Shown here: positions 26,419-51,595 of the stretch, in pieces | How positions within the stretch are numbered: position 1 is the stretch's first letter | How the letters are laid out: each line of letters begins with the position of its first letter | From: Roseobacter denitrificans OCh 114 | GTDB taxonomy: Bacteria; Pseudomonadota; Alphaproteobacteria; Rhodobacterales; Rhodobacteraceae | Length of the DNA: 64,000 nt | Direction of reading: 5' to 3' | Assembly: GCF_000014045.1 (NCBI RefSeq) | Contig: NC_008209.1 | Span: 620,001 to 684,000, forward strand | The notes under the pieces: model-generated | Databases searched by the model: none | What the model saw: the letters and a program-made list of their open reading frames with translations, nothing else | Told to the model about the DNA's origin: nothing | Position numbers and translations under genes: made by a program

Positions 26419-26513
26419 AGTGTGGCGCGAAATACCTGAAACACGCATTGCTGCCTGACATCAAAGGTTTCAACGCGTTACGTGATCTACGGGTATTGCG
26501 TCAGACGCTCTAG
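26415..26513 (-). repeat. Dispersed imperfect palindromic repeat, copy B
   Basis: Read on the minus strand it begins CTAGAGCGTCTGACG (26513 downward), contains ATCACGTAACGCGTTGAA, then TCAGGCAGC, and ends near CTTCAAG (26415). It aligns end to end with copy A at 1395-1498 with small gaps, although the inner inverted arm is more decayed than in copy A. It fills the whole gap between the convergent genes rmuC and uxuA: the TGA of rmuC lies at one end and the TAG of uxuA at the other. Confidence 0.72.
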
Positions 26514-27697
26514 GCCGCGTCAAACGCCGCCATGATCCCGCGCAATTCCGCAAGGCCCCGCATGCGCCCGATCAGCGGATAGCCAGGCATGCTGTCGCCG
26601 CCCAGATCGCTGAGCAGTTCCTGCCCATGATCAGGGCGCATGGGGATTTCCCAATCGGCACGGCCTGCGGCTTTACGGCGCTGTTCTTCGGCCAGCAGCG
26701 CCTTGATGGTGGCGACCATATCGGTGTCGCCTTCCAGATGCGCGGCCTCAAAGAAATCTGGTCGCGCCCGGTCTGATCCGGGCAGGCGTTTGGTATTGCG
26801 CAGGTGCACAAAGTGGATCTTGTCGCCAAGGCGGCTGACAAACTCGACCGGGTCGAAACCTTCCGCCACGCCGAGCGATCCGGTGCACAGTGTCGCACCA
26901 TTTGCCGGGCTGGGAACGGCATCAAGGATATGCGCATAGTCGTCCGTGGACGACATGATGCGCGGCAGACCCAGCAGTGAAAAGGGCGGATCATCCGGGT
27001 GGCAACACAGGCGCAGGCCAAGCTCTTCGGCGACGGGACACACCTCGGACAGGAAATCAATGAGGTTCTGGCGCAGTTGTGTGGGCGAAATGTCCTGATA
27101 GGTCGCCAGATGCGCCCGCACATCATCCGTCGTCCACTTGTCGTTGGACCCGGGCAGGCCCGCGACGATGTTGTTCTGAAGTGCGACCCGCTGCGCGTCG
27201 GTCAGATCGGCAAACCGCTGTGCCGCCATTTCTTGCAACTCTTGCGAATAATCCGCGGTAGCGCCGTCCCGTTGCAGGATATGCAGATCAAACACGGCAA
27301 AATCGAGAAAACAGAACAGCATGGCCGTCCCACCGTGGGGTTGTTTTGCACGCAGTTCGGTTCGGGTCCAATCGAGGATCGGCATGAAGTTATAGCAGAT
27401 GGTGCTGATACCAGCCGCTGCCAGATTGCGCAGGCTTTTCTTATAGGCCAGCAGATGATCTGCCATCTGCGGGCTTTGCGTCTTTATGCTTTCCGAAACG
27501 GGAAGGCTTTCGACAACCGTCCAGTCAAAGCCCTGTTGGTGCAGCATATCCTGCCGTTGCCGGATCGCTTCGGGCGTCCAAAGCGCACCGGGCAGGATAT
27601 CATGCAGGGCGCTCACGATGCCTTGCACCCCGACCTGATGCAGATCGGGCAAGGCGATCTTATCTGCGGGTCCGAACCAGCGCCAACATTGTTTCAT
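26510..27697 (-). CDS. uxuA: Mannonate dehydratase
   Basis: UxuA dehydrates D-mannonate to 2-keto-3-deoxygluconate (KDG). The 395-residue protein starts MKQCWRWFGPADKIAL and contains GISTICYNFMPILDWTRT, the metal-site region LRLCCHPDDPPFSLLGLPRIMSS, HFVHLRNTKR and IPMRPDHGQELLSD, diagnostic of UxuA. The ATG at 27697 overlaps the stop of the preceding oxidoreductase gene. It is the last gene of the 15-gene operon, and its TAG stop lies in repeat copy B. Confidence 0.96.
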   Translation of the reverse strand: MKQCWRWFGPADKIALPDLHQVGVQGIVSALHDILPGALWTPEAIRQRQDMLHQQGFDWTVVESLPVSESIKTQSPQMADHLLAYKKSLRNLAAAGISTICYNFMPILDWTRTELRAKQPHGGTAMLFCFLDFAVFDLHILQRDGATADYSQELQEMAAQRFADLTDAQRVALQNNIVAGLPGSNDKWTTDDVRAHLATYQDISPTQLRQNLIDFLSEVCPVAEELGLRLCCHPDDPPFSLLGLPRIMSSTDDYAHILDAVPSPANGATLCTGSLGVAEGFDPVEFVSRLGDKIHFVHLRNTKRLPGSDRARPDFFEAAHLEGDTDMVATIKALLAEEQRRKAAGRADWEIPMRPDHGQELLSDLGGDSMPGYPLIGRMRGLAELRGIMAAFDAA

Positions 27698-28746
27698 GGT
27701 ATCCATCCGTTGAATAAGGGGTGAGCCGATGACAGCGGCAACGAAACACGCGCGCCGCTTCGGGCAGAATGATATACCGCGCTCACCAGTTCAATAGAGG
27801 CCGCACCATCGGCGAGCGAAACAGCACCAGATGGCCGCCCCGCCAGATCATCTGCAATAGCCGCCAGAAACCCTGTGAAACCCGACGCTTCATCCGGGGT
27901 TTTTGTCAGGGCGTGATCAATATCTGGCTGGTCATTCGGGTCGCGGGCCATGAAGGACCAGTCTGATGTGCCGGGCGCATAGGGATTTGAACCCGATGTG
28001 ACGGTCAGCTTTTCAAACACGAACCGCAGGCGCGTTTCATCTGTTGCCGCCCCGAGGGTGATGTTGCTGGTTGCCAGTGCCCCATTCGCCATCTCAAAGG
28101 TCAGTGCCGCACAGTCCTCCGTTTCGATCGGATTGACGCGGGTCGTCGTCACCGCTGAAACGGCGCGGACTGGTCCCATGAAATGGGTCAGCAGGTCATG
28201 GGCGTGGATGGCATGGCCAAGAACCGCACCGCCCTGTTCGCCCGCCCATGTGCCGCGCCATGGCACGTCATAATAGGTACTGTCCCGCGACCAATGCGTT
28301 TCCAGCGCGGCCACCAGGGGCTGGCCCAAGAGGTCTGCGCGCTGCAGGTGGCGCAGCTGTGCACATGAACGACCCCAGCGATATTGAAAAACTGGATATA
28401 CCTTTCGGTTGTGGCGTTTGGCGGTCTGGGCAATCTGTTCCACCCCGGCGAGGCTGGTGGCCAGCGGTTTTTCACAGATGGCATTTTTGCCCGCAGCCAG
28501 TGCTTCCAGCGTGACGGGCAGATGCAGGTGCGGGGGCAGGCAAATGTCGATCAGGTCAATGTCGGGCCTTGCAAAAACGCCGTTCCAATCTGGTGTGATC
28601 AGGAAATCATGCGTGCCGCGCAGCGCCTCGGCACGGGTTTGATCCTTGTCCACAAGGGCCACAACCCGGAACAGATGCGGCAGCGCCTGATAGGCGGCAA
28701 GATGTTGCGCGCCGATTCCGGCCCCCAGAATGGCGACATTCAACAT
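27694..28746 (-). CDS. Gfo/Idh/MocA family oxidoreductase (first of four)
   Basis: A 350-residue NAD(P)-dependent dehydrogenase with the Rossmann motif GAGIGAQHL at 7-15, the EKP motif in CEKPLATS, and the catalytic GGAVLGHAIHAHD segment in the second domain. YYDVPWRGTW precedes it and is shared in form with the third Gfo/Idh protein here. Substrates of this family are sugars, inositols or sugar acids. It overlaps uxuA and begins one base after the next oxidoreductase gene ends. The start MLNVAILGAG at 28746 is preferred over 28785. Confidence 0.9.
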   Translation of the reverse strand: MLNVAILGAGIGAQHLAAYQALPHLFRVVALVDKDQTRAEALRGTHDFLITPDWNGVFARPDIDLIDICLPPHLHLPVTLEALAAGKNAICEKPLATSLAGVEQIAQTAKRHNRKVYPVFQYRWGRSCAQLRHLQRADLLGQPLVAALETHWSRDSTYYDVPWRGTWAGEQGGAVLGHAIHAHDLLTHFMGPVRAVSAVTTTRVNPIETEDCAALTFEMANGALATSNITLGAATDETRLRFVFEKLTVTSGSNPYAPGTSDWSFMARDPNDQPDIDHALTKTPDEASGFTGFLAAIADDLAGRPSGAVSLADGAASIELVSAVYHSARSGARVSLPLSSAHPLFNGWIP

Positions 28747-28747
28747 G

Positions 28748-29749
28748 TTACGCCCCTTCGGCCAGCGCTTGCGCTTGCAAGGCAAGCTCCATCACCTTAA
28801 AACAATGCGCTTGTGTCATCGCCGTTTCCGTGCGGTTTTCGATGTCATTGAGCAACTGGCCGAAATAGGGCAAGCCAGCGTCTGACGCGTCGATCTTTTC
28901 ACATCTGTCTCCGGTGACTAGGATCAGGTGATCCGTCCCTGCGCTGCCCCCGACATCCACGTATTTGCGCAACTCGATATAGCCTTCGGTGCCCAGAATG
29001 GTCAGCCGCCCATCGCCCCATGTAGGCAGCGCGTGGGGCGTGTACCAATCTACCCTGATGGACCCCGTGCCCTGATCGCTTTTCAAGGTGATCTCACCAA
29101 AATCCTGAAGCCCGGGGTGGGCCGGGTTCGCGTGGTTGGCCACGAAAGCATGGGTCACCTCGGCCTCTGTGGAGCCGGTGAAATGCAGGAACTGGTCGAT
29201 CTGATGCGAGGCGATATCCGTGAGGATACCGCCATATCGGCCGCGGTCAAAAAACCAATCCGGCCTGGTTTCCTTGTTCAGCCGGTGCGGTCCCAGCCCG
29301 GCGGTGTGCACGACCCGACCGATCGCGCCCTCGGCCACCAATGTGCTGGCGCGCGTCACGGCGGGGACTTCGAACCGTTCGGAAAAGTTGATCGACCAGA
29401 TCCGCCCGGTGTCACGCACAGTGCTGCGCAGATCGTCCAGCTGCGCCATGGTCGTGCAGCCGGGTTTGTCGGTCATCACATCCATGCCGCGCTGCATGCA
29501 TTGGATCGCCAGTGCTGCACGATCCGCCGGGATTGCAGCGATCAAGGCCAGATCTGCGCCAGACGCCAGTGCAGCATCGAGTGTTTCAAATCGGGTCAGA
29601 TGGGGAAAGCGTTTGCGAAACCCCTCAAGGCTGTGTAGCGTGCCTTCGGTCCAGAAGCCAAGGCATTGCGCCCCGGCGTCCAGCATGTTTTGCGTCATGC
29701 CGAAAATATGCCGGTGATCGAGACCGATTGCGACGAATTTGACGCTCAA
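28748..29749 (-). CDS. Gfo/Idh/MocA family oxidoreductase (second of four)
   Basis: A protein of about 333 residues (VKFVAIGLDHRHIFGMT...) with DKPG in place of EKP and GGILTDIASHQIDQFLHF as the active-site segment. It lacks the standard GxGxxG spacing: the N-terminus reads AIGLDHRHIFG, a divergent variant seen in some members. The start is probably the TTG at 29749, whose TTGA overlaps the preceding gene's stop and has AAAAGG upstream. It is the most divergent of the three adjacent paralogues, so it probably has a different substrate or step. Confidence 0.85.
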   Translation of the reverse strand: MSVKFVAIGLDHRHIFGMTQNMLDAGAQCLGFWTEGTLHSLEGFRKRFPHLTRFETLDAALASGADLALIAAIPADRAALAIQCMQRGMDVMTDKPGCTTMAQLDDLRSTVRDTGRIWSINFSERFEVPAVTRASTLVAEGAIGRVVHTAGLGPHRLNKETRPDWFFDRGRYGGILTDIASHQIDQFLHFTGSTEAEVTHAFVANHANPAHPGLQDFGEITLKSDQGTGSIRVDWYTPHALPTWGDGRLTILGTEGYIELRKYVDVGGSAGTDHLILVTGDRCEKIDASDAGLPYFGQLLNDIENRTETAMTQAHCFKVMELALQAQALAEGA

Positions 29750-30783
29750 ACCTGTGCCACCTTTTCCCAAGACCGTAACTTGCCGGATCGTTCCATTGCA
29801 TCAATGACCGCATGCGCCATTAGGGCCTGTTTCCCGGTGGCCATCGGGGCGCGCTGATCGGTGATGGCCAGCGCGAAGTCTTCGATCACGCTTTGATGCC
29901 ACGCGTGGGTAAAGGCCATGGGGTCCGCGCCGCCGCCAGTCGTGGCGCTGGCGCCATGTGTTTCTGTCTCCCCGTCCAGATGGGCAATCGTGAGCACGCC
30001 GCTTTCCAGATGCGCGCTGGCCTTGGTGCCGTGCAGGCTGATGGTTTCCGCCGTTCCCGGAAAAGCCGAAGTTGTGGCCGTCAGTGTACCCACACAGCCC
30101 CCGGCGGTTTCAAACAAGGCACCGGCCCAGTTTTCAGCCTCCAGCCTGTGCAGGGCGGTTTGGTGCATATGCGCGCAGACCTTGGAAAACGGTCCCAGTA
30201 ACCACAGCGCAAGGTCAAGTGTATGGATCGCCTGCGACATCATCACGCCACCGCCATCGCGGGCATAGGTGCCGCGCCCCGGGGCATCGTAATAGTCCTG
30301 ATCCCGCCACCACGGAACGCGAATTTCGGCATTGGTGATATCGCCCAGCTTGCCTTGATCAAGCGCCTGTTTCAACGCCTGTGACGCGGCGCGCGCGCGG
30401 TGCTGGAAGACGATACCAAGCGGCACAGCATGATCTGCGCAGAGCGTGACAATGTCTTGTGCGGCTTCAAGGGTCCGCTCAACGGGTTTTTCCATCAGGA
30501 TTGGTTTGCCCGCTCGCACCAAAGGCGCAATCAAGTCGCGCCGTGCATCCGGGGGCGTTGCAATGACAACGAAATCGACCCCAGGGTCGGCGGCAACCTC
30601 ATCCGCGTTTTGATAGGTTTTCACTGCGCGGCCAAGCACCTCAGCAGCATGTCTGCCATAGGCGCGAGCCTTTTCCGGGTCGCGCCCCATGATGCCGGAT
30701 AGATAAACGGTTTCAGCATCCCGAAAGGCCGTAAGATGTGTATCCGCCACCATGCCAAGCCCGATCAGAACGGCGTTTTTCAT
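29746..30783 (-). CDS. Gfo/Idh/MocA family oxidoreductase (third of four)
   Basis: A 345-residue protein with IGLGMVADTH at the nucleotide site, EKPVERT as the EKP motif and GGGVMMSQAIHTLDLALW as the catalytic segment. QDYYDAPGRGTYARD corresponds to YYDVPWRGTW in the first paralogue. Expected to oxidise or reduce a cyclic sugar or related polyol with NAD(P). The ATG at 30783 overlaps the KDG kinase stop (ATGA). Together with two neighbours it forms a tandem of three paralogues. Confidence 0.9.
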   Translation of the reverse strand: MKNAVLIGLGMVADTHLTAFRDAETVYLSGIMGRDPEKARAYGRHAAEVLGRAVKTYQNADEVAADPGVDFVVIATPPDARRDLIAPLVRAGKPILMEKPVERTLEAAQDIVTLCADHAVPLGIVFQHRARAASQALKQALDQGKLGDITNAEIRVPWWRDQDYYDAPGRGTYARDGGGVMMSQAIHTLDLALWLLGPFSKVCAHMHQTALHRLEAENWAGALFETAGGCVGTLTATTSAFPGTAETISLHGTKASAHLESGVLTIAHLDGETETHGASATTGGGADPMAFTHAWHQSVIEDFALAITDQRAPMATGKQALMAHAVIDAMERSGKLRSWEKVAQV

Positions 30784-31661
30784 GGCGCCGCCTTGGGTAT
30801 GATTGCCCCCCGATATTGTACGACCTGTGCCGCGCAATCATGTCCGGCACGCAAAGCCTGCGCCTGCGATCCGCCTGCCAAAAGCGCGGCGAGATAGGCA
30901 CCGTTGAAGCTGTCGCCCGCCGCCGTGGTATCCAGCACATGGGGCGCGGCACCGTAGGCTTGCGAGACTGCATCGCCCAGACTGATTGGCCCGTCAGCCC
31001 CGCGTTTCAACGCACCGGTGCCGTGATATCGGGTAAATCGCGCCTCAACCGCTGCGGCATCCTCATCAAAGAGCAGCATTTCATCATCAATGGAGGGCAG
31101 GCAGATGTCTGCACGTTCCCACAGCGCAGATGTCACGCGCTGTGCGGTCGGTTTATCCTCCCACAGGCGGGGTCGATAATTGCTGTCATAGGCCAGTTTG
31201 ATGGGTGTTCTGCCCAGCCACTCAACCAAAGCACTGCGCGCCGCATCAGGCAGGATCGCCACACTGATGCCCGAGAGGTACACAAGGTCATAGGCCTCAA
31301 GGATCGCGAAATCATAACCGGCACCGGTCTGGAACAGATCCCGCGCAGCGGCAGCACTGCGCCAATAGGTGAAGGAGCGTTCGCCATCCTCCGTGGTTGT
31401 GATCGCATAAAGGCCGGGGGATTTCCCGGTCAGGCGGGTCACAGCACCGGTGCCGATTGCTTGTGCTGCGATGAAGTCCTCGATCTGGTCCGAAAACGGA
31501 TCATCACCGAGGCAAGTCACGTAGTCGACGCTGAATTGCGGCGCGTTCCGTTTGAGGTAAATCGCCGTATTCAACGTGTCGCCCGCCACACCAACTTGGG
31601 AGGTCTGCCCCAGAATGGACAGTTCGATCATCGCTTCTCCGACGCAGGCGATACGGGTCAT
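30780..31661 (-). CDS. kdgK: 2-dehydro-3-deoxygluconokinase (PfkB family)
   Basis: KDG kinase phosphorylates 2-keto-3-deoxygluconate. The 293-residue protein begins MTRIACVGEAMIEL, has GVAGDTLNTAIYLKR, the KDG-kinase motif GERSFTYWRSAAAARDLF and the ATP-site PfkB signature LDTTAAGDSFNGAYLAAL with the catalytic Asp. It links the UxuA product to KDPG; the KDPG aldolase needed next is not in the window. It overlaps its two neighbours by 4 bp each. Confidence 0.92.
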   Translation of the reverse strand: MTRIACVGEAMIELSILGQTSQVGVAGDTLNTAIYLKRNAPQFSVDYVTCLGDDPFSDQIEDFIAAQAIGTGAVTRLTGKSPGLYAITTTEDGERSFTYWRSAAAARDLFQTGAGYDFAILEAYDLVYLSGISVAILPDAARSALVEWLGRTPIKLAYDSNYRPRLWEDKPTAQRVTSALWERADICLPSIDDEMLLFDEDAAAVEARFTRYHGTGALKRGADGPISLGDAVSQAYGAAPHVLDTTAAGDSFNGAYLAALLAGGSQAQALRAGHDCAAQVVQYRGAIIPKAAP

Positions 31662-32542
31662 TTACGCTGTTCCCTTTTCCAGATGACGAGGCCGGACGCC
31701 ACGATCACCAAGGCGCCGACGACGACCCAGAAATCAGGCACATCGCCAAAGATCAACCAACTGAAGGCGGCGATATAGATCATGAACGAATAGGTATAAG
31801 GCATCAGCGTATTGGCGGGCGCAAAGCGGTGCGCATTGGTGAGCAACTGATGCCCGCCCCAGCCCATCACGCCCAGCCCGACCAGCAATGCTGTGTCCAA
31901 TAGACTTTGCGGCGGAATCCAGAACCAGAGGGCAAAGGGCAGGGTCAGCATGGTTCCCAAAGCGCCGAGGTAGAGTTGCTGCGTTTCGGTTGCGACAATT
32001 CCGGCGAGTCTGCGGGTCATCAGGGAGTACAGCGCCAGTGCAGTCGCGTTATACAGTGGGAGGATCATGGCCGGATGGAACGTCTCGCCAAACGGGCGGA
32101 TCACGATCAGAACGCCGGCAAACCCCAACAGGATCGCCCCCCAGCGCCACGGCCCGATTTGTTCTTTCAGGATGGTCATCGACAAAAAGCACACGATGAT
32201 CGGGCTGGAAAACATGATCGCCGAAATGATCGTCAGTGGCAGATAGCTCAGCGCATAGAAATTACCCAATGTCGCGGATATCAGCAGCAAGGCCCGGCTC
32301 AGTACCAGCCAGATGTGATCGGTGCGAAACCGATCGAGGGCCATGCCATCCTTGGCAATCATGCCCACCGAAATCACCAGATGCCCGGCGTAGCGCATGA
32401 ACACCAGTTGAAACGCCGGATAGCCCGCCAGCGCAAGCCATTTGGCCGAAACATCGACCATCGCAAAGAAGTACCAGGCCACCAGCATCATGAGAATGCC
32501 AAGCTGGGGCCGGTCTTCTATGGCTCGCGCTGCGACCGCCAT
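31658..32542 (-). CDS. DMT family transporter (EamA)
   Basis: A 294-residue membrane protein with ten predicted helices and two EamA repeats (about 15-145 and 160-290). It contains WYFFAMVDVSAKWLALAG in the first repeat and GWGGHQLLTNAHRFAPANTLMPYTY in the second. It may import or export a metabolite of the pathway; substrate unknown. Its start directly abuts the stop of the beta-hydroxyacid dehydrogenase gene, and it overlaps kdgK, so it is an integral member of the operon. Confidence 0.88.
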   Translation of the reverse strand: MAVAARAIEDRPQLGILMMLVAWYFFAMVDVSAKWLALAGYPAFQLVFMRYAGHLVISVGMIAKDGMALDRFRTDHIWLVLSRALLLISATLGNFYALSYLPLTIISAIMFSSPIIVCFLSMTILKEQIGPWRWGAILLGFAGVLIVIRPFGETFHPAMILPLYNATALALYSLMTRRLAGIVATETQQLYLGALGTMLTLPFALWFWIPPQSLLDTALLVGLGVMGWGGHQLLTNAHRFAPANTLMPYTYSFMIYIAAFSWLIFGDVPDFWVVVGALVIVASGLVIWKREQRK

Positions 32543-33442: not shown

Positions 33443-34330
33443 CTATTTCGCGGTATCAAAGGCACGTTTTTTCATGCCTTTCTGGATTTCGTAGATTGAT
33501 ATCGGCACGTCCGGCTGCGGTTGCGGGATCCGCACAGGGATGTTTTTCAGGCGTGGGTTTTTCGTGGGCTGCCCGCAAAGCATACGGGTATCGTAATCCT
33601 CGATCCCGTCCCAGCGCGTCATGGACCCCATGATCGGAAAGGCATCCGCCGCCATCATTTCGAAAAACAGGATACGGCGTGGCCGGTCAGAGGTATTCAG
33701 CGCCGAGCCATGCACAATGCGGCCGTGATGGATGCTGATAGACCCCGCCGGGCCGGTCAGTTGAACCGCGTCGTCAGGGTTCAGCCCATTGTCCTCGGGC
33801 AGCATCGCACCCGCAAAGACGCCATCCACATGATGATCATAGACCGGCCCCTTATGGCTTTCCGGGTAGACCATAAGCGGCCCGTTTTCAGCGGCCATAT
33901 CGTCGATCAATACCCCGATGGCCAGAATGTCATCGTTGGTATGGGGGTAAAAGGCATAGTCCTGATGCCATTCGACCGCCGCGCCATAGCCCGCCGATTT
34001 CATATTCAGTTTGGTCGTGTGCAGACGCAGGTCAGGCCCGATCAGATCGCGTGCCGGGCCGAGAATGTGGTCTGAAACCATCAAGTCGCGCACCACATCC
34101 GATATCATATGCGGCAGTTTCACACGCCTCAGACGTGGCTCGGCTGGCGTATGGGTATCCTCAAGGTCCAGGCGGTCGTTCGACTGCGTCATGCCAGCGG
34201 CTTCGGTCTCAAACCGGGTGATCTCGTCGCGGAGTTGCGTGATCCATTCGGGCGGTATCTGGTTTTCCACAACCAGATAGCCACGGTCATTGTATCGCGT
34301 GACCTGTTCAGGCGAGAGCACTTCGGGCAT
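33443..34330 (-). CDS. Phytanoyl-CoA dioxygenase (PhyH) family protein, first copy
   Basis: A 295-residue Fe(II)/2-oxoglutarate-dependent oxygenase. The metal ligands are visible: EWHQDYAFYPH (His-x-Asp) and IVHGSALNTSDRPRR (distal His, then Arg for 2-oxoglutarate). It begins MPEVLSPEQVTRYNDRGYLV, typical of bacterial PhyH proteins. Such enzymes hydroxylate small molecules or demethylate ethers. The start at 34330 has AGGAGA upstream and the gene overlaps the neighbouring Gfo/Idh gene by 23 bp. No CoA-related gene is nearby, so the substrate is probably not an acyl-CoA. Confidence 0.9.
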   Translation of the reverse strand: MPEVLSPEQVTRYNDRGYLVVENQIPPEWITQLRDEITRFETEAAGMTQSNDRLDLEDTHTPAEPRLRRVKLPHMISDVVRDLMVSDHILGPARDLIGPDLRLHTTKLNMKSAGYGAAVEWHQDYAFYPHTNDDILAIGVLIDDMAAENGPLMVYPESHKGPVYDHHVDGVFAGAMLPEDNGLNPDDAVQLTGPAGSISIHHGRIVHGSALNTSDRPRRILFFEMMAADAFPIMGSMTRWDGIEDYDTRMLCGQPTKNPRLKNIPVRIPQPQPDVPISIYEIQKGMKKRAFDTAK

Positions 34331-35330
34331 GGCCGTCTCCTGTCGTCTGAGCTGCCAGTTGGTCTTCGATGGCCAGTGCGATTTCAAGCGTTCGGGTCGC
34401 ATCCGCAACATCAATCAGTGGCGCGGCCCCGTCCATCACGTCAAGGAAATGATCCAGCTGTGCGTCGAGGGGTGGTTTCGTGTTGTCCGCGCGGACCAAA
34501 GGTTTTTGGCGCGCGGATTTCCCCCAGTCTGTTCCCTGCCACAGCGTCATGGAGGGAAAACTGACCGCGCCATCCGTGCCGGAAATCCGCAGCATATCCT
34601 GACCGGTTGTGCCGATATTGGGGTTCTCGCCGGTGGCTGCTTCGAACCCCCAGGGGCTGGGCGTGGTATCGGCAAAGCTGATGGTGCCTGTCGCCCCATC
34701 TTCAAAGGCCAGCGCGATGGCACCGGATTCGATCCGCGTCTCCCCGCGCAGGCCGCGCCCGCGCAAGGCTGCTGTTGCAACGATCTCACCGACCACGAAA
34801 CGCAAAGTGTCAATGTCATGCACGAGGTTGATAAGAACAGGACTGCCGCCTGCCGTGCGCCAATTCCCGTCAAAATAAGCATCCGGCTTGCGCATGGCCC
34901 AGATCATGCTGAGCGTGACCGGCGTCCCAATAGCGCCCTCGGTCAGCAGGTGTTTCAATTGCTGGACCGACGCGTGATAGCGGCGATGATGTCCGACCAG
35001 CGAACCGACACCAGCCTGTTGCACCGCATCGCCGAGCGCGCGCGCGGCGCCCATATCGCCCGCGACAGGTTTTTCGATCAGCATATGCCAGCCATGTTCG
35101 GCGGCATACTGACCCTGTGCGCTGTGTAAATCCGTCGGTGTCGCGAGGATCACACCGTCCACGGGTGTTGTCACCTGCGCCATGTCTTCAAAGCGTGGGA
35201 TGCCTTCGCCAGTTTTGATATCAGGGTTCGGATCAACGAGGCCAACCAGCGTGCAGCGTGGGTGGTCTTTCACTGTCTGCACGTGACGTGCACCAATCAA
35301 CCCTCCACCCACGATGAGGACTTTTTTCAC
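34308..35330 (-). CDS. Gfo/Idh/MocA family oxidoreductase (fourth)
   Basis: A 340-residue protein with VLIVGGGLIGARHV at the nucleotide site, LIEKPVAGDMGAARAL (EKP) and GGSPVLINLVHDIDTLRF as the active-site segment with His and Asp. It sits between a PhyH gene and the UxaA-family gene, apart from the other three paralogues. The GTG at 35330 overlaps the UxaA stop (GTGA). The oxidised substrate may be the product of one of the dioxygenases; this is inference. Confidence 0.9.
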   Translation of the reverse strand: MKKVLIVGGGLIGARHVQTVKDHPRCTLVGLVDPNPDIKTGEGIPRFEDMAQVTTPVDGVILATPTDLHSAQGQYAAEHGWHMLIEKPVAGDMGAARALGDAVQQAGVGSLVGHHRRYHASVQQLKHLLTEGAIGTPVTLSMIWAMRKPDAYFDGNWRTAGGSPVLINLVHDIDTLRFVVGEIVATAALRGRGLRGETRIESGAIALAFEDGATGTISFADTTPSPWGFEAATGENPNIGTTGQDMLRISGTDGAVSFPSMTLWQGTDWGKSARQKPLVRADNTKPPLDAQLDHFLDVMDGAAPLIDVADATRTLEIALAIEDQLAAQTTGDGHARSALA

Positions 35331-36835: not shown

Positions 36836-36846
36836 GAGAGGTCCTT

Positions 36847-39435: not shown

Positions 39436-40277
39436 CAGTCTTGTCCTACCGCGCGTTTAAGGGCCTGAATTTCGTCTTCATCCGGCGTGTCGTCATGTAT
39501 CTCAGGTTCTGCGTTCCAGTCGGAAATCAGGTTGAGCACCGCCTGTACCGCCACCAGCGAAATCATGATCAGCACAAGCGGTTGCAGGGTTGCGGGGATC
39601 GGCGGGTCAAAGGCCGTGCCGAATGTTTCCCATTTGTAGAGCTTGTTCTCAAAGACCTGCTTGTAGCTGCCGTAGACCAGAAAGAAGGCAAACATCACGA
39701 TCAAAACCGTTGTGATGCAGTCAAAGAGACGCTGCACCCAGCGGGGGCAGACATCGTAGAGCAGAAAGATGCGGATATGGCTGCGTTGCTGCATCGCATA
39801 AAGCCCGGCCATAAGGAAGACAAACCCGGCCAGCCAGAGCGACAGCTCATTTGCCCAGAGCGTCGGGCGTTCCAGCACGTAGCGCAAAAATACCTCATAG
39901 AGCATGACGCTCGTCAAAAGCACGACCAGCATCATGGTGACCCGCCCGATGAACATGGCGGCGCGGTCTACGCTGCGCCAGTGTTCGAATTCCATGTTCG
40001 CGCGCCGGACGGTCATGGCACCAGCAATGAACAAGACCGGGACCAACAGCAGCGTCACCAGATCGACGATGTCGATCTTGCCGAACAGCGGCGTGAGGTT
40101 GGGCGTCACATCATTGCGGTCAAAAATCGCACTGACCTGACCGAACATGGATTCGTTCTCATGGGGGAACCATGTCAGGATATAGGCCGGCATGTGCCAG
40201 ATCGCCCAGCCGGCACAAAAGATGAAGGCCAGCGGGATCAGCCATTCTATGAGGCTGCCTGAAGTTCTCTGCATCAT
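39435..40277 (-). CDS. TRAP transporter small permease (DctQ), enlarged
   Basis: A 280-residue inner-membrane protein with about six hydrophobic segments. The central part (about 120-250) matches DctQ: LTSVMLYEVFLRYVL, WANELSLWLAGFVFLMAGLYA and a C-terminal helix. DctQ proteins usually have 160-200 residues; the extra N-terminal part adds two helices and a loop (residues 1-110). The enlarged DctM suggests both belong to one TRAP subtype with larger membrane subunits. The start follows AAGGAG. Confidence 0.88.
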   Translation of the reverse strand: MMQRTSGSLIEWLIPLAFIFCAGWAIWHMPAYILTWFPHENESMFGQVSAIFDRNDVTPNLTPLFGKIDIVDLVTLLLVPVLFIAGAMTVRRANMEFEHWRSVDRAAMFIGRVTMMLVVLLTSVMLYEVFLRYVLERPTLWANELSLWLAGFVFLMAGLYAMQQRSHIRIFLLYDVCPRWVQRLFDCITTVLIVMFAFFLVYGSYKQVFENKLYKWETFGTAFDPPIPATLQPLVLIMISLVAVQAVLNLISDWNAEPEIHDDTPDEDEIQALKRAVGQD

Positions 40278-42761: not shown

Positions 42762-43439
42762 ATGTTCGACCGCGACATTTACTCAGATTTGCAGCATCGC
42801 CTCATCACCAATGATTTCGATCATGGCGAAAAACTGCGTGCAGAACAATTGAAACGTGACTACGGCTGCTCCGCCAGTACCGTGCGTGAGGCGCTCTTTC
42901 GGCTATCGACGGAAGGGCTGGTCGATTTTCAGGAACAGCGCGGTTTTCGCGTGCCGGAAAAATCGGCTGCGGTTCTGGCTGAACTGACGCACATCCGAAT
43001 CCTGCTTGAGGGCGAGGGCACGGTGCTGTCGATCCGGCAGGGCGGGGTGGCCTGGGAGGCGCGGCTGACAGCGGCGCACCATCAACTCAGCCATATCGAA
43101 AAGCGAATCCACGCCAGCGAAGACCCGACCGATCTGGTGCCGTTGTGGTTTCAGGCTGAACTGGAGTTTCACCAGACGCTGATTTCGGCCTGCGACTCTG
43201 CCACGCTCAAGGCGATGCATGTGCAGGTCTACCGACGCTTCCGGCAGCAGTTGATGATTGCCGATCGCAGTTTTGATTTCATTTCAAAGAACATCCAGCA
43301 TCATCACGCGATCATGGTCGCCGCCCTTGATGGCAATGAGGATCTGACGCGCCAGAAAATCCACGACCATCTGGCACGGCATCTTGGCGGTGCATTCAGC
43401 GCGCAAGCCGCTCAGCGGTTCAAATCCTCCGCAATGTAG
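42762..43439 (+). CDS. GntR family transcriptional regulator (FCD domain)
   Basis: A 225-residue DNA-binding protein with an N-terminal winged helix (about 5-70; QLKRDYGCSASTVREALFRLSTEGLVDFQEQRGFRV) and a C-terminal FCD effector domain (about 75-215; EFHQTLISACDS, HHAIMVAALDGNEDLTRQKIHDHLARHL with metal-type His residues). Such proteins are usually repressors released by a pathway sugar acid. It is divergent from dctP and probably controls the whole island. Its 3' end overlaps the convergent dehydrogenase gene by 28 bp. Confidence 0.9.
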   Translation: MFDRDIYSDLQHRLITNDFDHGEKLRAEQLKRDYGCSASTVREALFRLSTEGLVDFQEQRGFRVPEKSAAVLAELTHIRILLEGEGTVLSIRQGGVAWEARLTAAHHQLSHIEKRIHASEDPTDLVPLWFQAELEFHQTLISACDSATLKAMHVQVYRRFRQQLMIADRSFDFISKNIQHHHAIMVAALDGNEDLTRQKIHDHLARHLGGAFSAQAAQRFKSSAM

Positions 43440-44383
43440 ATTTCGATGATCTCGTCAAAACTGGCTTCGGCCTTGAACCCGAGTGCCTCTGCGCGGGCAG
43501 GATTGAAATCGCGCGGCCAGCCTTCGACGATCTTGGCAATATCCGCGTTCGGCCGTGGCACGATCAGGTCCACAACCTTTTGGCCTGCCACGCGGCGCAA
43601 GGCTTCGATCTGTTCGGCAACGGTGCAGCTGATCCCCGGCAGGTTGAGCGCGCGACGACCGCCTAAACGGTTCGTATCAAGGCCTGCGGCATGCACCAGA
43701 AACCCGGCGGCAGATCGCGGCGATGCGTGCCAGTGGCGCACCGTATCAGGCACGGGCAAAATGGCTTCCTGCCCGTTCAGCGGTTCACGTATGATGCCTG
43801 AGAAAAACGAAGAGGCCGCGAGGTTCGCCTTGCCCGGGCGTACGCAAATGGTCGGGAAGCGCAGCGACATGCCATCGACAAAACCCTTTCGGCTGAAATC
43901 GCTCAGCATCAACTCGCAGCTTGCCTTCTGCGCGCCGTAGCTCGTTTGCGGGGCGGAGAGGAATTCGTCGTCAATCCTGTCCGGGAACGGGCCGCCAAAG
44001 ACCGCGATGGACGAGGTGAACACCACCCGCGGAACATAAGCCCCGCCGGTGGCATTATGCTCGGACCGCAACGCTTTGAGCAGATGCCACATGGACATCA
44101 TGTTGACGGCCCAGCCTTTGTCAAAATCGGTTTCCGCCTCGCCCGACACGATGGCGGCGAGATGAAAGATCACCTCGAAACGCTGTGTGGCGAGGGTCTG
44201 TATCGCCGCTGCGTCCGTCAGGTTCCCTGTGATCTGCACGCCCGGCGCGCTGGTCGGTGGAAAGCCCATATCGAAAAGCGTCACATCAAGGTCCTGAGCA
44301 CCCGCGAGGCCTGATGTTGCCAAGCGGTGTGCCAGTTTCTGGCCGACCATGCCACCGCCGCCGATGATCAAAACGCGGGTCAT
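43412..44383 (-). CDS. NAD-dependent epimerase/dehydratase, D-erythronate dehydrogenase-like
   Basis: A 323-residue extended SDR protein with IGGGGMVGQKLAHRL at the nucleotide site, FHLAAIVSGEAETDFDKGWAVN and YGAQKASCEL (Tyr-x3-Lys). The LAAIVSGEAE and IADFSRKG-like layout resembles DenD, which oxidises D-erythronate to 2-keto-D-erythronate. No DenE or DenA partner genes are seen, so the substrate may be another C4-C6 acid. It overlaps the next gene's stop by 4 bp and the convergent regulator by 28 bp. Confidence 0.82.
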   Translation of the reverse strand: MTRVLIIGGGGMVGQKLAHRLATSGLAGAQDLDVTLFDMGFPPTSAPGVQITGNLTDAAAIQTLATQRFEVIFHLAAIVSGEAETDFDKGWAVNMMSMWHLLKALRSEHNATGGAYVPRVVFTSSIAVFGGPFPDRIDDEFLSAPQTSYGAQKASCELMLSDFSRKGFVDGMSLRFPTICVRPGKANLAASSFFSGIIREPLNGQEAILPVPDTVRHWHASPRSAAGFLVHAAGLDTNRLGGRRALNLPGISCTVAEQIEALRRVAGQKVVDLIVPRPNADIAKIVEGWPRDFNPARAEALGFKAEASFDEIIEIYIAEDLNR

Positions 44384-45267
44384 GTCGCCAGCCCATTGCG
44401 CTGTTTCAGCTCCAGATAAAGGCCCGAGTGGTCTTTTTCCGCGCCCCCCATGGCGTCACTGAAATGCTGGAAACGGTCGCGCACGGTTTCGGTGGCGGGC
44501 AGGGTCAGACCAAGGCTCGCGGCTTCGTCCAGGGTATTGTTCAGGTCCTTGATCTGGAACTTGGTCAGCCCGCCGGGTTCAAAATCGCCCTTCGTCATCC
44601 GCTCCCCATGCTGTTGAAGAATAGTGCTATCGGCAAACCCACCTTTGAGGGCAGCGCGCACGGCTGCGGGGTCCGCACCACCCTGCTCCACCAGCAGCAT
44701 CGCTTCGGCGACGGCGGAAATTGTGACGGCGACGATTGTCTGGTTCGCCAGTTTTGACAACTGCCCCGTGCCCGAGGGGCCGACATGCACCGGGCGACCC
44801 ATGGCCTCAAACACGGCACGGGCCGCTTCGAATGTCTCGGCTTTGCCGCCGACCATGATGGCCAGTGTTGCATCCTGCGCGCCTTTGGTACCACCTGAGA
44901 CGGGCGCATCCAGATGGCCAAAACCGAGCGCTGTGAGGGTGGCATGCTGCGCGCGGGCGTGCTCGGGCTTGGTGCTCGACATGTCGATCCAGATCGCGCC
45001 GGGGCTTAACGCGGCCTGAATGGCCGGGTCATCCACGAGCGCGCCGGTGGCATAGCCATCCGACAGCATGGTGATCACGAATTCTGCGCCCTGCACAGCC
45101 TGCACCGCGTCGGCTGCCAGCTTCGCACCATCGGCGACAAGCGGTTGAGCACGCGCAGCGGTCCGGTTCCAGACGGTCACGTCATGCCCGGCTTTCAAAA
45201 GGTTCCGCGCCATGGGAACACCCATCAGGCCGGTTCCGATAAGTGTGATTTTTCTGGATTGTGCCAT
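44380..45267 (-). CDS. NAD(P)-dependent beta-hydroxyacid dehydrogenase, second copy
   Basis: A 295-residue protein with LIGTGLMGVPMARNLLKAGH, WIDMSSTKPEHARAQ, LDAPVSGGTKGAQDATLAIM and the catalytic Lys in GTGQLSKLANQTIVA. It is of the same family as the protein at 32543 but clearly different in sequence. Paired with the DenD-like gene it could act as an L-threonate-type dehydrogenase or tartronate-semialdehyde reductase. Its start is divergent from the plus-strand SDR gene, 199 bp away. Confidence 0.9.
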   Translation of the reverse strand: MAQSRKITLIGTGLMGVPMARNLLKAGHDVTVWNRTAARAQPLVADGAKLAADAVQAVQGAEFVITMLSDGYATGALVDDPAIQAALSPGAIWIDMSSTKPEHARAQHATLTALGFGHLDAPVSGGTKGAQDATLAIMVGGKAETFEAARAVFEAMGRPVHVGPSGTGQLSKLANQTIVAVTISAVAEAMLLVEQGGADPAAVRAALKGGFADSTILQQHGERMTKGDFEPGGLTKFQIKDLNNTLDEAASLGLTLPATETVRDRFQHFSDAMGGAEKDHSGLYLELKQRNGLAT

Positions 45268-45466: not shown

Positions 45467-46228
45467 ATGCCTGGGCAAAGACTTAAAGGAAAACGCGCGC
45501 TTGTAACCGCCGCCGGTCAGGGGATTGGCCGCGCCAGTGCATTGGCGATGGCTGAAGAGGGGGCGCAGGTCTTTGCGACAGACATAGACATGGATGCGCT
45601 TTCAACGATTCGGGAGGCGAATCACGAAAATATCGAAATTTTCGAACTTGATGCCCGCAGCGATGACAGCGTGGCCGCCGGTGTCGAACGGGCCAGACCG
45701 GACGTTTTGTTCAACTGTGCAGGCTTTGTGCATCACGGCACAATTCTGGATGCAACGGATGGTGATTGGGACTTTGCCTTTGATCTGAACGTGCGCTCCA
45801 TGTTGCGCACCATCAAGGCGGCACTGCCCGGCATGCTGAATCGCGGTGTCGGGTCGATCGTCAATATGTCGTCTGCCTGCTCTTCGGTCATGGGTGCGCC
45901 AAACCGGTTTATCTATGGCACGACCAAGGCTGCGGTGATCGGGCTGACCAAATCGGTTGCGCTGGATTTCATCGACAAGGGCATCCGCTGCAATGCGATC
46001 TGCCCGGGCACGGTGGAAAGCCCAAGCTGGCTTGAACGCGTGGACGCTCTGGGCAAACAGTTGGGCAGCCGGGAGGAAGCGCTGGCGCAATTCGTGGCCC
46101 GGCAACCCATGGGGCGCGTTGCCAGTGCCGATGAGATCGCCTCGCTCGTCGTCTATCTTGCCAGCGATGAAAGCGCGTTCACCACAGGGCATCCCCATAT
46201 CATTGACGGAGGCTGGTCAGGCCAATGA
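45467..46228 (+). CDS. Short-chain dehydrogenase, 2-keto-3-deoxy-sugar-acid type
   Basis: A 253-residue SDR with [20 protein letters not shown] (cofactor), [36 protein letters not shown] (Ser, Tyr-x3-Lys) and [15 protein letters not shown], close to the 2-keto-3-deoxy-L-fuconate dehydrogenase and human BDH2/DHRS6 type. With the FAH hydrolase two genes downstream it fits a route in which C4 of a 2-keto-3-deoxy acid is oxidised. AAAGGGAGAG precedes the ATG at 45467. It is first in a five-gene operon and overlaps the next gene (ATGA). Confidence 0.88.
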
Positions 46229-48024
46229 CAAAGAAAATCGGTATCGAAGACTTGCGGTCGCGCAAGTGGTTCATGAACCCGGACAATCCGGAAATGACCG
46301 CGCTTTATCTTGAGCGCTATCTCAATTACGGGCTGACGCGGGGCGAGTTACAATCGGGCAAGCCGATCATCGGTATTGCGCAAACCGGCAGTGACCTCAG
46401 CCCCTGTAACCGCCATCACCTCGAGTTGACCAAGCGCGTACGCGACGGGATCATTGCGGCAGGCGGCACCTGCATCGAGGTGCCCGTGCACCCCATTCAG
46501 GAAACCGGCAAACGCCCTACGGCGATGCTGGATCGCAACCTTGCCTATCTGTCGCTGGTTGAGACGCTGTTTGGCTACCCGCTGGATGGTGTTGTGCTGA
46601 ATATCGGCTGTGACAAGACCACGCCTGCGCTTTTGATGGCGGCTGCGACGGTGAACATTCCTGCGATTGCCCTGTCGGTGGGGCCAATGCTGAACGGCTG
46701 GTTCAAGGGTGAGCGGACAGGGTCCGGGACAATCGTCTGGAAGGCGCGCGAAATGCTGGCCGCCGGAGAGATTGATGACGACGGTTTCATGGAGCTTGTT
46801 GCCTCTTCCGCGCCGTCGGTGGGCTATTGCAACACGATGGGCACCGCGACCACGATGAATTCACTGGCGGAGGCCTTGGGCATGCAACTGCCCGGTTCCG
46901 CGGCGATCCCGGCACCCTACCGCGAGCGGGGACAGATCAGCTATGAAACCGGGCGGCGCATTGTGGACATGGTCTGGGAAGACCTGCGCCCCTCGCAGAT
47001 CATGACGCGCGAGGCTTTCGAGAACGCGATTGTCATCAATTCCGCCATTGGGGGGTCGACGAATGCGCCGATCCACCTGAACGGGATCGCGCGCCATCTG
47101 GGTGTTCCGCTGGACAATAACGATTGGCAGAAGCTGGGCCATGATGTGCCGTTGTTGGTCAACTTGCAGCCGGCGGGTGAATACCTTGGCGAAGACTACA
47201 GCCATGCGGGCGGGGTGCCTGCCGTCGTGGGTGAGTTGATGGCAGAGGGCATGTTGCCGCATCCCGACGTGATCACCGTGAATGGCAAAACCATGGGCGA
47301 GAACTGCGCCGATATGCGCAGCGCGGATACCAAGGTGATCAAGACCGTTGCGGATCCATTGAAAGCGCAGGCGGGTTTTATCAACCTGACCGGCAATCTT
47401 TTTGACAGTGCGATCATGAAGACCAGCGTGATCAGCGAGAGTTTTCGCGCCAAATATCTGTCGAACCCTGAGGATCCGAATGCTTTTGAGGGGCGTGCGG
47501 TTGTCTTTGACGGGCCGGAGGATTTTCACAACCGCATCGACGATCCCGCCGAGGCGATCGACGAAAACTGCATCCTCTTCATGCGCGGTGCAGGCCCAAA
47601 GGGGTATCCCGGTGGGGCTGAGGTGGTGAACATGCGCCCCCCGTCCTATCTGATCAAACAGGGTGTTGAAGCCTTGCCCTGCGTGGGTGACGGGCGGCAA
47701 TCGGGAACCTCGGGCAGCCCATCGATCCTGAACGCCTCCCCTGAGGCGGCGGCGGGTGGTGGTCTTGCGCTGTTGCAAAACGGGGACCCTGTGCGCATCG
47801 ATTTGCAAAAATGCACCGCCAACAGCCTCGTGCCGCTGGATGAACTGGCGGAACGCGCCCGCTTGTTCGAGGCTAATGGCGGCTACGACGCCCCCGAAAG
47901 CCAGTCGCCCTGGCAGCAATATTTCCGCGAAAAAGTCGGCCGTTTTGACGAGGGAATGATCCTCGAAGATGCCGACAAATATCAGGACATCTCGCGTCGG
48001 TTCATGCCGCGCGACAACCACTAG
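46225..48024 (+). CDS. IlvD/Edd family sugar acid dehydratase
   Basis: A 599-residue iron-sulfur dehydratase of the L-arabinonate/D-xylonate subgroup. Three conserved cysteines are visible: Cys61 (SPCN), Cys129 (GCDKT) and Cys202 (GYCNTMGTA), matching the [2Fe-2S] ligands known in that subgroup. [13 protein letters not shown] is the family signature and [13 protein letters not shown] lies near the C-terminus. It dehydrates an aldonic acid to the 2-keto-3-deoxy acid; pentonate or hexonate preference cannot be read. It is coupled to the SDR gene. Confidence 0.93.
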
Positions 48025-48057
48025 GCGCTGCGGCGCACAGACGAAAAGGAAGAAGAC

Positions 48058-48906
48058 ATGAAACTTGTAAGATACGGTGACGCAGGCGCAGAAAAACCCG
48101 GCATGCTGGATGCAGAAGGCGCGTTGCGCGATCTGTCGGGCCATGTGGATGACATTGCGGGCGACGTGCTGTCCGACGCGGGCCTTGATAAGCTGCGCGC
48201 GATTGATCCGACCAGCCTGCCCGTTGTGGATGGCAGCCCGCGCATTGGTCCTTGCGTTGGCAATATCGGTAAATTCATGTGCATCGGGCTGAACTATTCC
48301 GATCATGCCGCCGAAACAGGTGCCGCCATCCCCGAGCATCCGATCCTGTTCTTCAAGGCCAATTCTGCGGTCGTGGGGCCGAATGACGATGTGTCCATGC
48401 CGCGCGGCTCCACCCACACCGATTGGGAGGTCGAACTGGGCGTCGTGATCGGGACCACGGCCAAATATGTGTCCAAAGAGAACGCATTGGATCACGTGGC
48501 AGGCTATTGCGTGATCAACGACGTCTCCGAGCGGCATTTCCAGACGCAGCTGACGGGGCAGTGGACCAAGGGTAAATCCTGCGACACCTTCGGGCCGACC
48601 GGGCCTTGGCTGGTGACGCGTGACGAGGTGGCGGACCCGCAAGCCCTGGACATGTGGCTGGACGTGAACGGCAAGCGGATGCAGACCGGCACGACCAGTA
48701 CCATGATCTTTACCGTGGCCGAGATCATCGAACACCTCTCGGGGCTGATGACGCTGCATCCGGGTGATGTGATCACCACCGGCACGCCTCCCGGTGTCGG
48801 CATGGGGATAAAGCCCGAACCCGTCTATCTGAAAAAAGGCGATGTGATGGAGTTGTGGATCGAAGGGTTGGGGACGCAGCGGCAGACCGTGACGGAGGAC
48901 GCATAG
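48058..48906 (+). CDS. Fumarylacetoacetate hydrolase family protein
   Basis: A 282-residue FAH-fold hydrolase: CIGLNYSDHAAETG, IPEHPILFFKANSAVVGPND, DWEVELGVVIG with the metal-binding Glu pair, VINDVSERHFQ and GDVITTGTPPGVGMG. In Xanthomonas-type L-fucose catabolism a member of this subgroup hydrolyses 2,4-diketo-3-deoxy-L-fuconate to pyruvate and lactate, and its gene sits beside an SDR, as here. The same role on a related diketo acid is inferred. It starts 33 bp after the dehydratase stop. Confidence 0.9.
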   Translation: MKLVRYGDAGAEKPGMLDAEGALRDLSGHVDDIAGDVLSDAGLDKLRAIDPTSLPVVDGSPRIGPCVGNIGKFMCIGLNYSDHAAETGAAIPEHPILFFKANSAVVGPNDDVSMPRGSTHTDWEVELGVVIGTTAKYVSKENALDHVAGYCVINDVSERHFQTQLTGQWTKGKSCDTFGPTGPWLVTRDEVADPQALDMWLDVNGKRMQTGTTSTMIFTVAEIIEHLSGLMTLHPGDVITTGTPPGVGMGIKPEPVYLKKGDVMELWIEGLGTQRQTVTEDA

Positions 48907-49836: not shown

Positions 49837-49837
49837 C

Positions 49838-50938
49838 ATGAGCCGGATCGCCACGGTTCAGGCCCGGCTTTTCAATGTGCCCTTGGATGAGGTGTTGGTG
49901 GATGCCAAACACGGCAGTCACAGCCACTTTCACCTCATCACGGCGACCATAACGCTGGAAGACGGGCGTCAGGGCACGGGTTATACCTATAACGGCGGGC
50001 GCGGCGGGCATGCGACGGCGGCGATGATCACGCATGATCTGGCGCCCTTTCTCATCGGCAAGTACGCGCAGGACGTCGAAGCGCTGAACGATGCGATGCA
50101 ATGGCATATGCATTACGTGGGGCGTGGCGGCATCGTCAGCTTTGCGATCTCGGCGGTCGATATCGCCCTGTGGGATTTGCGCTGCAAGGCGCATGGCGCG
50201 CCCCTCTGGCAACTGGCGGGTGGCGTGGATAACAGTTGCAAAGCCTATGGCGGCGGCATTGATCTTGCCTTTCCGCTGCCCAAACTGCTCACGCATGTGC
50301 AGGGCTATCTCGATGCGGGCCTGAATGCGGTCAAAATCAAGGTCGGCCAGCCAGATATGGCAGACGATATTGCCCGTATCCGTGCCGTGCGTCGCCATAT
50401 CGGTCCCGACGCCGATTTCATGATCGACGCGAATTATGCGTTGACGGTGGAGCAGGCGATCACCCTCGCCAATGCGGTGAAGGACCAGAATATCCTATGG
50501 TTTGAAGAGCCGATCATCCCGGACAATTACCCCGGATATGCGCAGATCACCAAAGCGACGGGCATGGCCGTGGCGCAGGGCGAAAACCTGCACACGATCC
50601 ACGAGTTTGAAATGGCCGTGGCGCAGTCAGATCTGGGCTTCATCCAGCCCGATGCATCTAATTGCGGTGGTATCACGGGGTGGTTGCAGGTTGCGGCGCT
50701 GACCGAACAAAGCGGCATCGCACTATGTTCGCATGGCATGCAGGAATTGCACGTGAGCCTTGTTTCCGCTCAGGCGCACGCCGGCTGGATCGAAGTGCAC
50801 AGCTTTCCAATCGACCGATACACGATGCGTCCGCTGGTGATTGAGGACGCACGCGCGGTTGCGCCGGATGAATCCGGGATCGGCGTGACGTTCGATTGGC
50901 AAAGGTTGCAGGCCTTTGAGGTCGTGCAACCAGCTTAA
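49838..50938 (+). CDS. Enolase-superfamily sugar acid dehydratase (MR/MLE), second
   Basis: A 366-residue MR/MLE enzyme with Lys166-x-Lys168 (VKIKVG), metal ligands Asp197, Glu223 and Glu249, and His299 (CSHGMQELH). [14 protein letters not shown] near the N-terminus and the KxK/His pair resemble talarate/galactarate dehydratases, but not conclusively. It differs clearly from the TRAP-linked enzyme at 40302, so the island has two separate enolase-superfamily dehydratases. It starts 1 base after the previous stop and overlaps the convergent chrR stop by 4 bp. Confidence 0.88.
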
Positions 50939-51588: not shown

Positions 51589-51595
51589 CGTTTCA

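Follow-up and report, generated by a model that had tools for sequence, protein, structure and literature searches.

Introduction

Agar and carrageenan occur in abundance, and the difficulty in using them lies in their anhydro sugars. The described systems closest to the locus analyzed here are the 3,6-anhydro-L-galactose pathway of Vibrio sp. EJY3 (VejAHGD, VejACI), the dauABCD carrageenan pathway of Zobellia and Pseudoalteromonas, the galactarolactone cycloisomerase of Agrobacterium (AtGCI), and the non-phosphorylating Route III of Herbaspirillum huttiense, which comprises an L-2-keto-3-deoxyfuconate (L-KDF) 4-dehydrogenase, a 2,4-diketo acid hydrolase, and a GarD-family D-arabinonate dehydratase. 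A 2024 review states that the entry of L-2-keto-3-deoxygalactonate (L-KDGal) into the central metabolism of Escherichia coli remains to be elucidated; further background is given in PMC9706016, PMC11219438, PMC12632266, and PMC5385347. The present study concerns positions 26510–50938 of a 64,000-nucleotide stretch of Roseobacter denitrificans OCh 114 (NC_008209.1, 620,001–684,000; hereafter the window), which a sequence-only reading had described as a sugar-acid island with five dehydratases.

Our analysis indicates that this is a real, conserved, modular catabolic locus of roseobacters and, judged from sequence, probably a sugar-acid locus of the marine members of that group with two entries for anhydrogalactonates. 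Gene identities, kinship, residues, gene contexts, and the genome inventory are described below; all reactions, and what the transporter carries, are inferred from them.

Results and Discussion

ENS2 and its operon

The locus ends in a plus-strand operon with tight spacings (−4, 33, 0, and 1 bp), whose last gene encodes ENS2, one of two enolase-superfamily proteins; the other, ENS1, is encoded outside this operon and is listed last:

45467–46228, plus strand: SDR (short-chain dehydrogenase/reductase), L-KDF 4-dehydrogenase family; best solved match the H. huttiense enzyme, 8xwk (285 bits, 58.0% identity); R148, R192, R214, and W252 kept
46225–48024, plus strand: IlvD/Edd-family sugar-acid dehydratase; PRK13017, 1005.2 bits, cut-off 684
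48058–48906, plus strand: FAH-family 2,4-diketo-3-deoxy acid hydrolase; NF053535, 445.6 bits, under the cut-off of 500; 8gsr, 344 bits
48907–49836, plus strand: D-2-hydroxyacid dehydrogenase (DHDH); family scans
49838–50938, plus strand: ENS2, predicted 3,6-anhydro-L-galactonate cycloisomerase; kinship, tree, residues
40302–41471, minus strand: ENS1, enolase superfamily, predicted DauB-type 3,6-anhydro-D-galactonate cycloisomerase; kinship, tree, gene context, residues

The ENS2 open reading frame (ORF) opens at 49793, within the preceding gene, and its likely start is 49838. The best solved relative of ENS2 is the Vibrio 3,6-anhydro-L-galactonate cycloisomerase VejACI, with 62.6% identity and a score of 525 bits, the next different protein reaching 307. 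In the enolase-superfamily trees, from which the ENS2 of locus L014 and rows under the score limits were excluded, VejACI and ENS2 share a group of 28 rows (support 87/80, under the limit for a starred branch), and a Catenovulum relative (L121) with a neighbour named for the pathway falls just outside it. The metal ligands, base, and acid are identical in 28 of the 28 rows, and the corresponding K166, D194, E220, E246, and H296 (AtGCI numbering) are identical in ENS1 and ENS2. By these alignments and trees, ENS2 is kin to the ring-opening cycloisomerases of red-algal anhydro-sugar acids, not to dehydratases.

The genes that precede ENS2 suggest what may follow ring opening. ENS2 would open the ring of 3,6-anhydro-L-galactonate, derived from agar or porphyran, and so yield L-KDGal; the SDR would oxidize L-KDGal at C4 to a 2,4-diketo acid; the FAH protein, whose best solved match (8gsr) is an L-2,4-diketo-3-deoxyrhamnonate hydrolase, would cleave that acid to pyruvate and L-glycerate; and DHDH may handle the 2-hydroxyacid product. 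The four residues listed for the SDR are those named for the Herbaspirillum L-KDF 4-dehydrogenase in PMC11199699, and the catalytic Tyr and Lys are kept as well (numbering of that paper, offset 4). The same source gives kcat/Km values of 7900 for L-KDF, 1480 for L-KDGal, 641 for D-KDP, and 75.2 for D-KDGlu (abbreviations as in that paper), all of them 4(S)-OH compounds. D-2-keto-3-deoxygalactonate, as the mirror image of L-KDGal, should not fit the SDR. The IlvD/Edd protein and the GarD-like dehydratase encoded elsewhere in the locus could supply the same branch from other acids whose C4 configuration matches and whose products bear a 4(S)-OH.

The same three families as in Route III are found here: the SDR, the FAH protein, and a GarD-superfamily protein with four Cys (the Herbaspirillum GarD was compared by description). 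In contrast to Route III, the operon here has an IlvD/Edd dehydratase gene and closes with that of a cycloisomerase, and the GarD-like protein lies in a clade other than that of fucose-operon GarD relatives. With the Vibrio sp. EJY3 pathway the locus shares a VejACI-type enzyme with its residues kept, but the R. denitrificans genome is without a close anhydrogalactose dehydrogenase, and the neighbours of ENS2 are a C4-dehydrogenase and a hydrolase rather than the ADH+SDR pair seen in most of the plasmid loci opened.

Alternative modules beside ENS2

Eighteen plasmid records hold an ENS2 relative, and 10 of them were opened. An ADH+SDR pair directly adjoins ENS2 in seven (L108, L111, L112, L118, L119, L121, and L122), with an aldehyde dehydrogenase nearby in six of these (L118 excepted), and in one record the SDR is named 2,5-didehydro-3-deoxy-L-galactonate 5-reductase; no such pair lies beside ENS2 in the other three (L113, L120, and L123). 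Among 80 family genomes, each representing one genus label, ENS2 of at least 63% identity occurs in 15, the present genome included. It stands beside SDR, IlvD, FAH, and DHDH in four (the present genome, G019, G001, and G027), beside ADH+SDR in seven (G066, G007, G059, G022, G058, G072, and G054), and beside neither in four (G040, G049, G052, which has a DHDPS-family gene there, and G075, which has a DHDH relative there). In the tree, ENS2 proteins accompanied by SDR/IlvD/FAH/DHDH form two starred branches, one of the window, L086, and L016 and one of L092 and L098, with L080 apart. Our reading is that one product, L-KDGal, is met by alternative downstream modules.

Two further arrangements were noted. 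A DHDPS-family, aldolase-like gene lies divergently beside an ENS2 ortholog in L097 (8303–10512), a possible third use of L-KDGal. In an Enterobacter record (L123, 5962–7077), an ENS2 ortholog of 66% identity sits beside ADH and mannitol-dehydrogenase-family genes, near dnaA and gyrB.

It is also conceivable, if unlikely, that the SDR–IlvD–FAH–DHDH operon and the GarD-like protein serve L-fuconate, D-arabinonate, D-xylonate, or L-galactonate, with ENS2 merely adjacent and its product consumed by different enzymes. In L-fucose operons that carry FucU, a lactonase, and an aldo/keto reductase, members of these SDR and FAH families do accompany GarD relatives; the Herbaspirillum GarD-family enzyme prefers D-arabinonate (PMC6336799); and ENS2 is missing from most GarD loci with this operon, being present in 2 of the 15 that could be judged. 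Yet ENS2 directly follows the operon in the four genomes above, on two branches of its own tree, the published L-KDF 4-dehydrogenase takes L-KDGal (PMC11199699), and the window showed no homologue of the ADH+SDR pair, which was not sought in the genome as a whole.

ENS1 and its DauB-type relatives

The best solved matches of ENS1 are 4ggb (308 bits) and 5olc (270 bits). ENS1 falls in a 23-row clade (support 100/99) with plasmid proteins of Pseudoalteromonas carrageenovora (66.1% identity), Sulfitobacter, Roseibium, and P. seriniphilus, all members being annotated proteins only, and AtGCI falls in a separate clade (100/100); both clades are starred. The characterized Zobellia DauB (ZgDauB) lies outside both, on a long branch.

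Gene contexts agree with this division. Among 60 plasmid records that hold an ENS1 relative, seven were opened: the four at or above 60% identity and 3 of the 56 below it. An aldehyde dehydrogenase lies directly upstream in 4/4 of the former, with a KDGal kinase and KDPGal aldolase downstream in two, and kdgD lies upstream in 3/3 of the latter, which are members of the AtGCI clade. The P. carrageenovora gene at the place of the ENS1 relative is annotated dauB by homology, at 40% identity to ZgDauB, in PMC6262041. Identification of ENS1 as a galactarolactone cycloisomerase was rejected on the separate clade and the different gene context: ENS1 and AtGCI share the superfamily, the catalytic residues, and 41.0% identity, but not the clade or the kdgD neighbourhood. 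ENS1 is predicted to be a DauB-type enzyme, which would open 3,6-anhydro-D-galactonate, from carrageenan, to D-2-keto-3-deoxygalactonate; this product may then pass to DgoK and the adjoining KDPGal aldolase encoded at C1:2737351–2738750. That pair, and the 66.1% identity to the protein at the dauB position, are what the locus and genome have in common with the dauABCD pathway. Unlike in that pathway, there is no dauA beside ENS1 and no close dauA match in the genome, the kinase and aldolase are encoded away from ENS1, and ENS1 sits within a TRAP operon.

Layout and the remaining dehydratases

A minus-strand run extends from DctP (42565) to UxuA (26510), with ENS1 between DctP and DctQ; taken as the longest ORFs, its members overlap or are separated by gaps of at most 71 bp. 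It is followed by a plus-strand GntR gene and by DenD and HAD2 on the minus strand, before the SDR operon begins:

41543–42565, minus strand: TRAP solute-binding protein DctP, lineage tracking the cycloisomerases; family scan, tree
39435–40277, minus strand: TRAP small permease DctQ; family scans
37813–39435, minus strand: TRAP large permease DctM; family scans
36847–37797, minus strand: PhyH-family dioxygenase 2 (PhyH2); family scan
35327–36943, minus strand: UxaA/GarD-superfamily dehydratase (GarD-like), own clade without a characterized member; family scans, tree, Cys alignment
34308–35351, minus strand: Gfo/Idh/MocA oxidoreductase D (GfoD); family scans
33443–34414, minus strand: PhyH-family dioxygenase 1 (PhyH1); PF05721
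32543–33430, minus strand: HAD1, beta-hydroxyacid dehydrogenase, tartronate-semialdehyde-reductase (TSAR)-like; below cut-off
31658–32542, minus strand: EamA/DMT permease; family scans
30780–31661, minus strand: PfkB-family, 2-keto-3-deoxygluconate (KDG)-kinase-like (KdgK); 269 bits, under the equivalog cut-off of 400
29746–30837, minus strand: Gfo/Idh/MocA oxidoreductase C (GfoC); family scans
28748–29770, minus strand: Gfo/Idh/MocA oxidoreductase B (GfoB); family scans
27694–28785, minus strand: Gfo/Idh/MocA oxidoreductase A (GfoA); family scans
26510–27706, minus strand: UxuA, D-mannonate dehydratase; TIGR00695 above cut-off; 4eac, 419 bits; sole PF03786 match of the genome
42762–43439, plus strand: GntR/FCD regulator; family scan
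43412–44383, minus strand: DenD, D-erythronate dehydrogenase family; NF043036, 362.1 bits, above the cut-off of 325
44380–45267, minus strand: HAD2, beta-hydroxyacid dehydrogenase, TSAR-like; below cut-off

Directly past the locus, 50935–54459 encodes a ChrR-type anti-sigma factor, an ECF sigma factor, an amine-oxidase-family protein, and a DUF1365 protein, a set that we take to resemble a light or singlet-oxygen response module.

The sequence-only reading had placed UxuA, a UxaA-family protein, two enolase-superfamily proteins, and an IlvD/Edd protein in the locus, all with intact active sites. Family scans find each of them within 26510–50938, and alignments bear out the enolase-superfamily ligands, base, and acid, the four Cys of the GarD-like protein, the three Cys of the IlvD/Edd protein, and the UxuA motifs. 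Three of its five dehydratases stand as such; ENS1 and ENS2 are closest to cycloisomerases by solved matches, tree, and identity. The KDG-kinase-like gene is an addition to that account.

The UxuA assignment is firm (443.4 bits, cut-off 199.55), and motifs shared with E. coli UxuA are visible in the alignment. The IlvD/Edd protein matches best a solved chain named galactonate dehydratase (993 bits), followed by one of xylonate type (775 bits), names that are in part the depositors', and it keeps the three Cys common to both chains; we take these Cys, like the shared UxuA motifs, to have catalytic roles. The GarD-like protein matches PF20629, PF04295, and SAF; its true start probably lies downstream of the ORF start, since relatives align from about residue 33. 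It is 36.8% identical to E. coli UxaA and 35.5% to E. coli GarD, and keeps four Cys (ORF positions 165, 200, 235, and 303) common to both of these and to two plasmid relatives. PMC6336799 describes this pattern for the UxaA/GarD superfamily, which includes D-arabinonate, D-idonate, altronate, and galactarate dehydratases. In the tree, the protein lies in its own starred clade of 10 rows (97/100) with no characterized member, separate from the fucose-operon relatives and from a three-row clade linked to UxuB and UxaC. Two candidate identities were rejected: galactarate dehydratase, on a score of 380.2 bits against the TIGR03248 cut-off of 730.85, and L-fuconate dehydratase of the fucose-operon type, on the separate starred clade. 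Context is not a perfect guide in this family, since L150, with UxaC beside it, falls among the fucose-type relatives.

UxuA and the KDG-kinase-like protein could complete a glucuronate route begun by UxaC and an adjoining fructuronate-reductase-family gene at about C1:2.81 Mb, some 2.1 Mb from the locus. The sequence-only reading had noted the lack of a KDPG aldolase, which holds for the locus but not for the genome, with its two PF01081 matches. It had likewise noted the absence of the uronate isomerase and mannonate oxidoreductase of the classical route, with upstream steps left to the Gfo/Idh and other dehydrogenases or lying elsewhere; some do lie elsewhere, and with UxaC, the fructuronate-reductase-family gene, and KDPG aldolases in the genome a missing glucuronate route is not supported.

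The locus might instead be a uronate/aldarate island, in which ENS1 is a galactarolactone cycloisomerase, the GarD-like protein a galactarate or altronate dehydratase, and the TSAR-like genes finish the pathway. This idea draws on UxuA, the KDG-kinase-like gene, and the two TSAR-like genes, on the greater identity of ENS1 to AtGCI than to ZgDauB (34.1%), and on the presence of UxaC and a mannitol-dehydrogenase-family gene within the same set on a Thalassococcus plasmid. We consider it improbable: ENS1 is not in the AtGCI clade, in which the genes opened stand downstream of kdgD, the GarD-like protein scores 380 bits against 731 and lies outside the three-row clade, and ENS2 is left without explanation.

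Conservation and mobility

Conservation was assessed in the loci of the best 80 of 582 GarD relatives, many of them cut by contig ends, with genes counted at 45% identity or more. Much of the set recurs, more than by chance: DctM in 64, HAD1 in 62, SDR in 56, KdgK in 49, GfoD in 44, IlvD in 42, PhyH1 in 39, FAH in 32, DHDH in 25, UxuA in 22, ENS1 in 16, and ENS2 in 4, the nearest named loci being those of Roseobacter sp. The locus is not a genomic island in the strict sense, with no compositional break and no tRNA border (its flanks were not searched for mobile genes), but it can move, since most of it is carried, with UxaC, a mannitol-dehydrogenase-family gene, and a D-erythronate operon, by the 45.8-kb Thalassococcus plasmid pS3C (L113:1–45797). 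PhyH2 relatives follow the TRAP genes in the ENS1/ENS2 loci L096 and L099, in a stretch without GarD.

A single substrate passing through the whole 24 kb, such as an algal sugar acid with a methyl group or another modification, first unmasked by the PhyH dioxygenases and Gfo/Idh enzymes, would fit the long minus-strand run of overlapping or closely spaced ORFs and the recurrence of PhyH and Gfo/Idh genes with GarD. It seems improbable to us, as the modules vary separately among the 80 loci (compare ENS1, UxuA, PhyH1, and GfoD above) and G054 has ENS1, ENS2, TRAP, and PhyH2 together without GarD.

Transport and supply of the acids

The TRAP transporter is predicted to import at least one of these acids. 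Across the 80 GarD loci, identity to the DctP of the window has a median of 84.0% where ENS1 is present (14 loci) and 67.4% where it is not (48 loci; p 2.7e-5). This statistic is not wholly freed of kinship, since GntR, EamA, KdgK, and PhyH2 show a difference as well (p 3.0e-4 to 4.0e-3); DctQ, DctM, GarD, HAD1, GfoD, SDR, and DenD show no such difference. In a fast 72-row DctP tree (omitting L086, L092, and L098, taken as the same genomes as L024, L074, and L058), a starred clade of 16 consists of 14 ENS1 loci and of L090 and L095, which have ENS2 instead; the ENS1 loci L014, L026, and L067 lie outside it. Label changes on this tree number 5 against 15.6 in shuffles, none of 500 shuffles being as low. 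ENS1 and ENS2 also occur together in 8 of the 80 family genomes (12 and 15 carriers, respectively; Fisher p 7.6e-5). This tracking of the cycloisomerases by the binding-protein lineage suggests that the acids may be imported directly. Solved relatives of DctP indicated no clear ligand. Among the open-access papers searched, none joined anhydro-L-galactose or anhydro-D-galactose with a TRAP transporter, and one matched for anhydro-L-galactose with a 4-dehydrogenase, where the enzyme concerned acts on arabinitol.

Several observations weigh against the scheme of two anhydrogalactonate entries and a C4-oxidation branch. ENS1 shares only 34.1% identity with the characterized DauB of Zobellia, which lies outside its clade. 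ENS2 orthologs occur in Enterobacter and Mesorhizobium records without the ADH+SDR pair alongside, so that some may act on other acids. The arrangement of ENS2 with SDR/IlvD/FAH/DHDH is a minority one (4/15, against 7/15 with ADH+SDR and 4/15 with neither), and ENS2 follows DHDH in only 2 of the 15 GarD loci in which the place after DHDH is visible. The FAH, KDG-kinase-like, and both TSAR-like proteins all score below their equivalog cut-offs, and four Gfo/Idh and two PhyH proteins are left without explanation; nor could a separate step be assigned to DHDH or the TSAR-like proteins. Finally, no close anhydrogalactose dehydrogenase was found in the genome, the best matches reaching 38% to the L-type and 35% to the D-type candidate, where genuine enzymes of this kind may share as little as 40% identity with each other; and GH16, the only agarase/carrageenase family tested, is absent from it. 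Given these last two absences, the acids would need an external source, and they are most likely supplied by uptake in free form.

Implications

Collectively, these results lead us to a tentative proposal, possible rather than probable: roseobacters without GH16 would scavenge both mirror forms of free 3,6-anhydrogalactonic acid through a dedicated TRAP transporter, the L form being degraded to pyruvate and L-glycerate by an undescribed cycloisomerase/C4-dehydrogenase/FAH branch that involves neither a kinase nor an aldolase. The earlier suggestions that the locus handles several different acid sugars, and that a marine polymer is their source, are upheld, the latter as likely; uronates as the main theme are not, since the two entry enzymes point to the anhydrogalactonates of agar and carrageenan. 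Placement of the enzymes in clades of a single known substrate gave a mixed picture, with ENS2 beside a characterized enzyme and ENS1 beside an annotated one, for different substrates, and the GarD-like clade without a characterized member.

The most interesting new point is the attachment of a cycloisomerase to a C4-oxidation branch, which suggests a new way of breaking down one red-seaweed sugar. The locus may thereby offer a concrete, testable branch from L-KDGal, together with a candidate importer of the free acids. More broadly, genes of roseobacters assigned to the mandelate racemase family may be seaweed-sugar cycloisomerases rather than uronate dehydratases.

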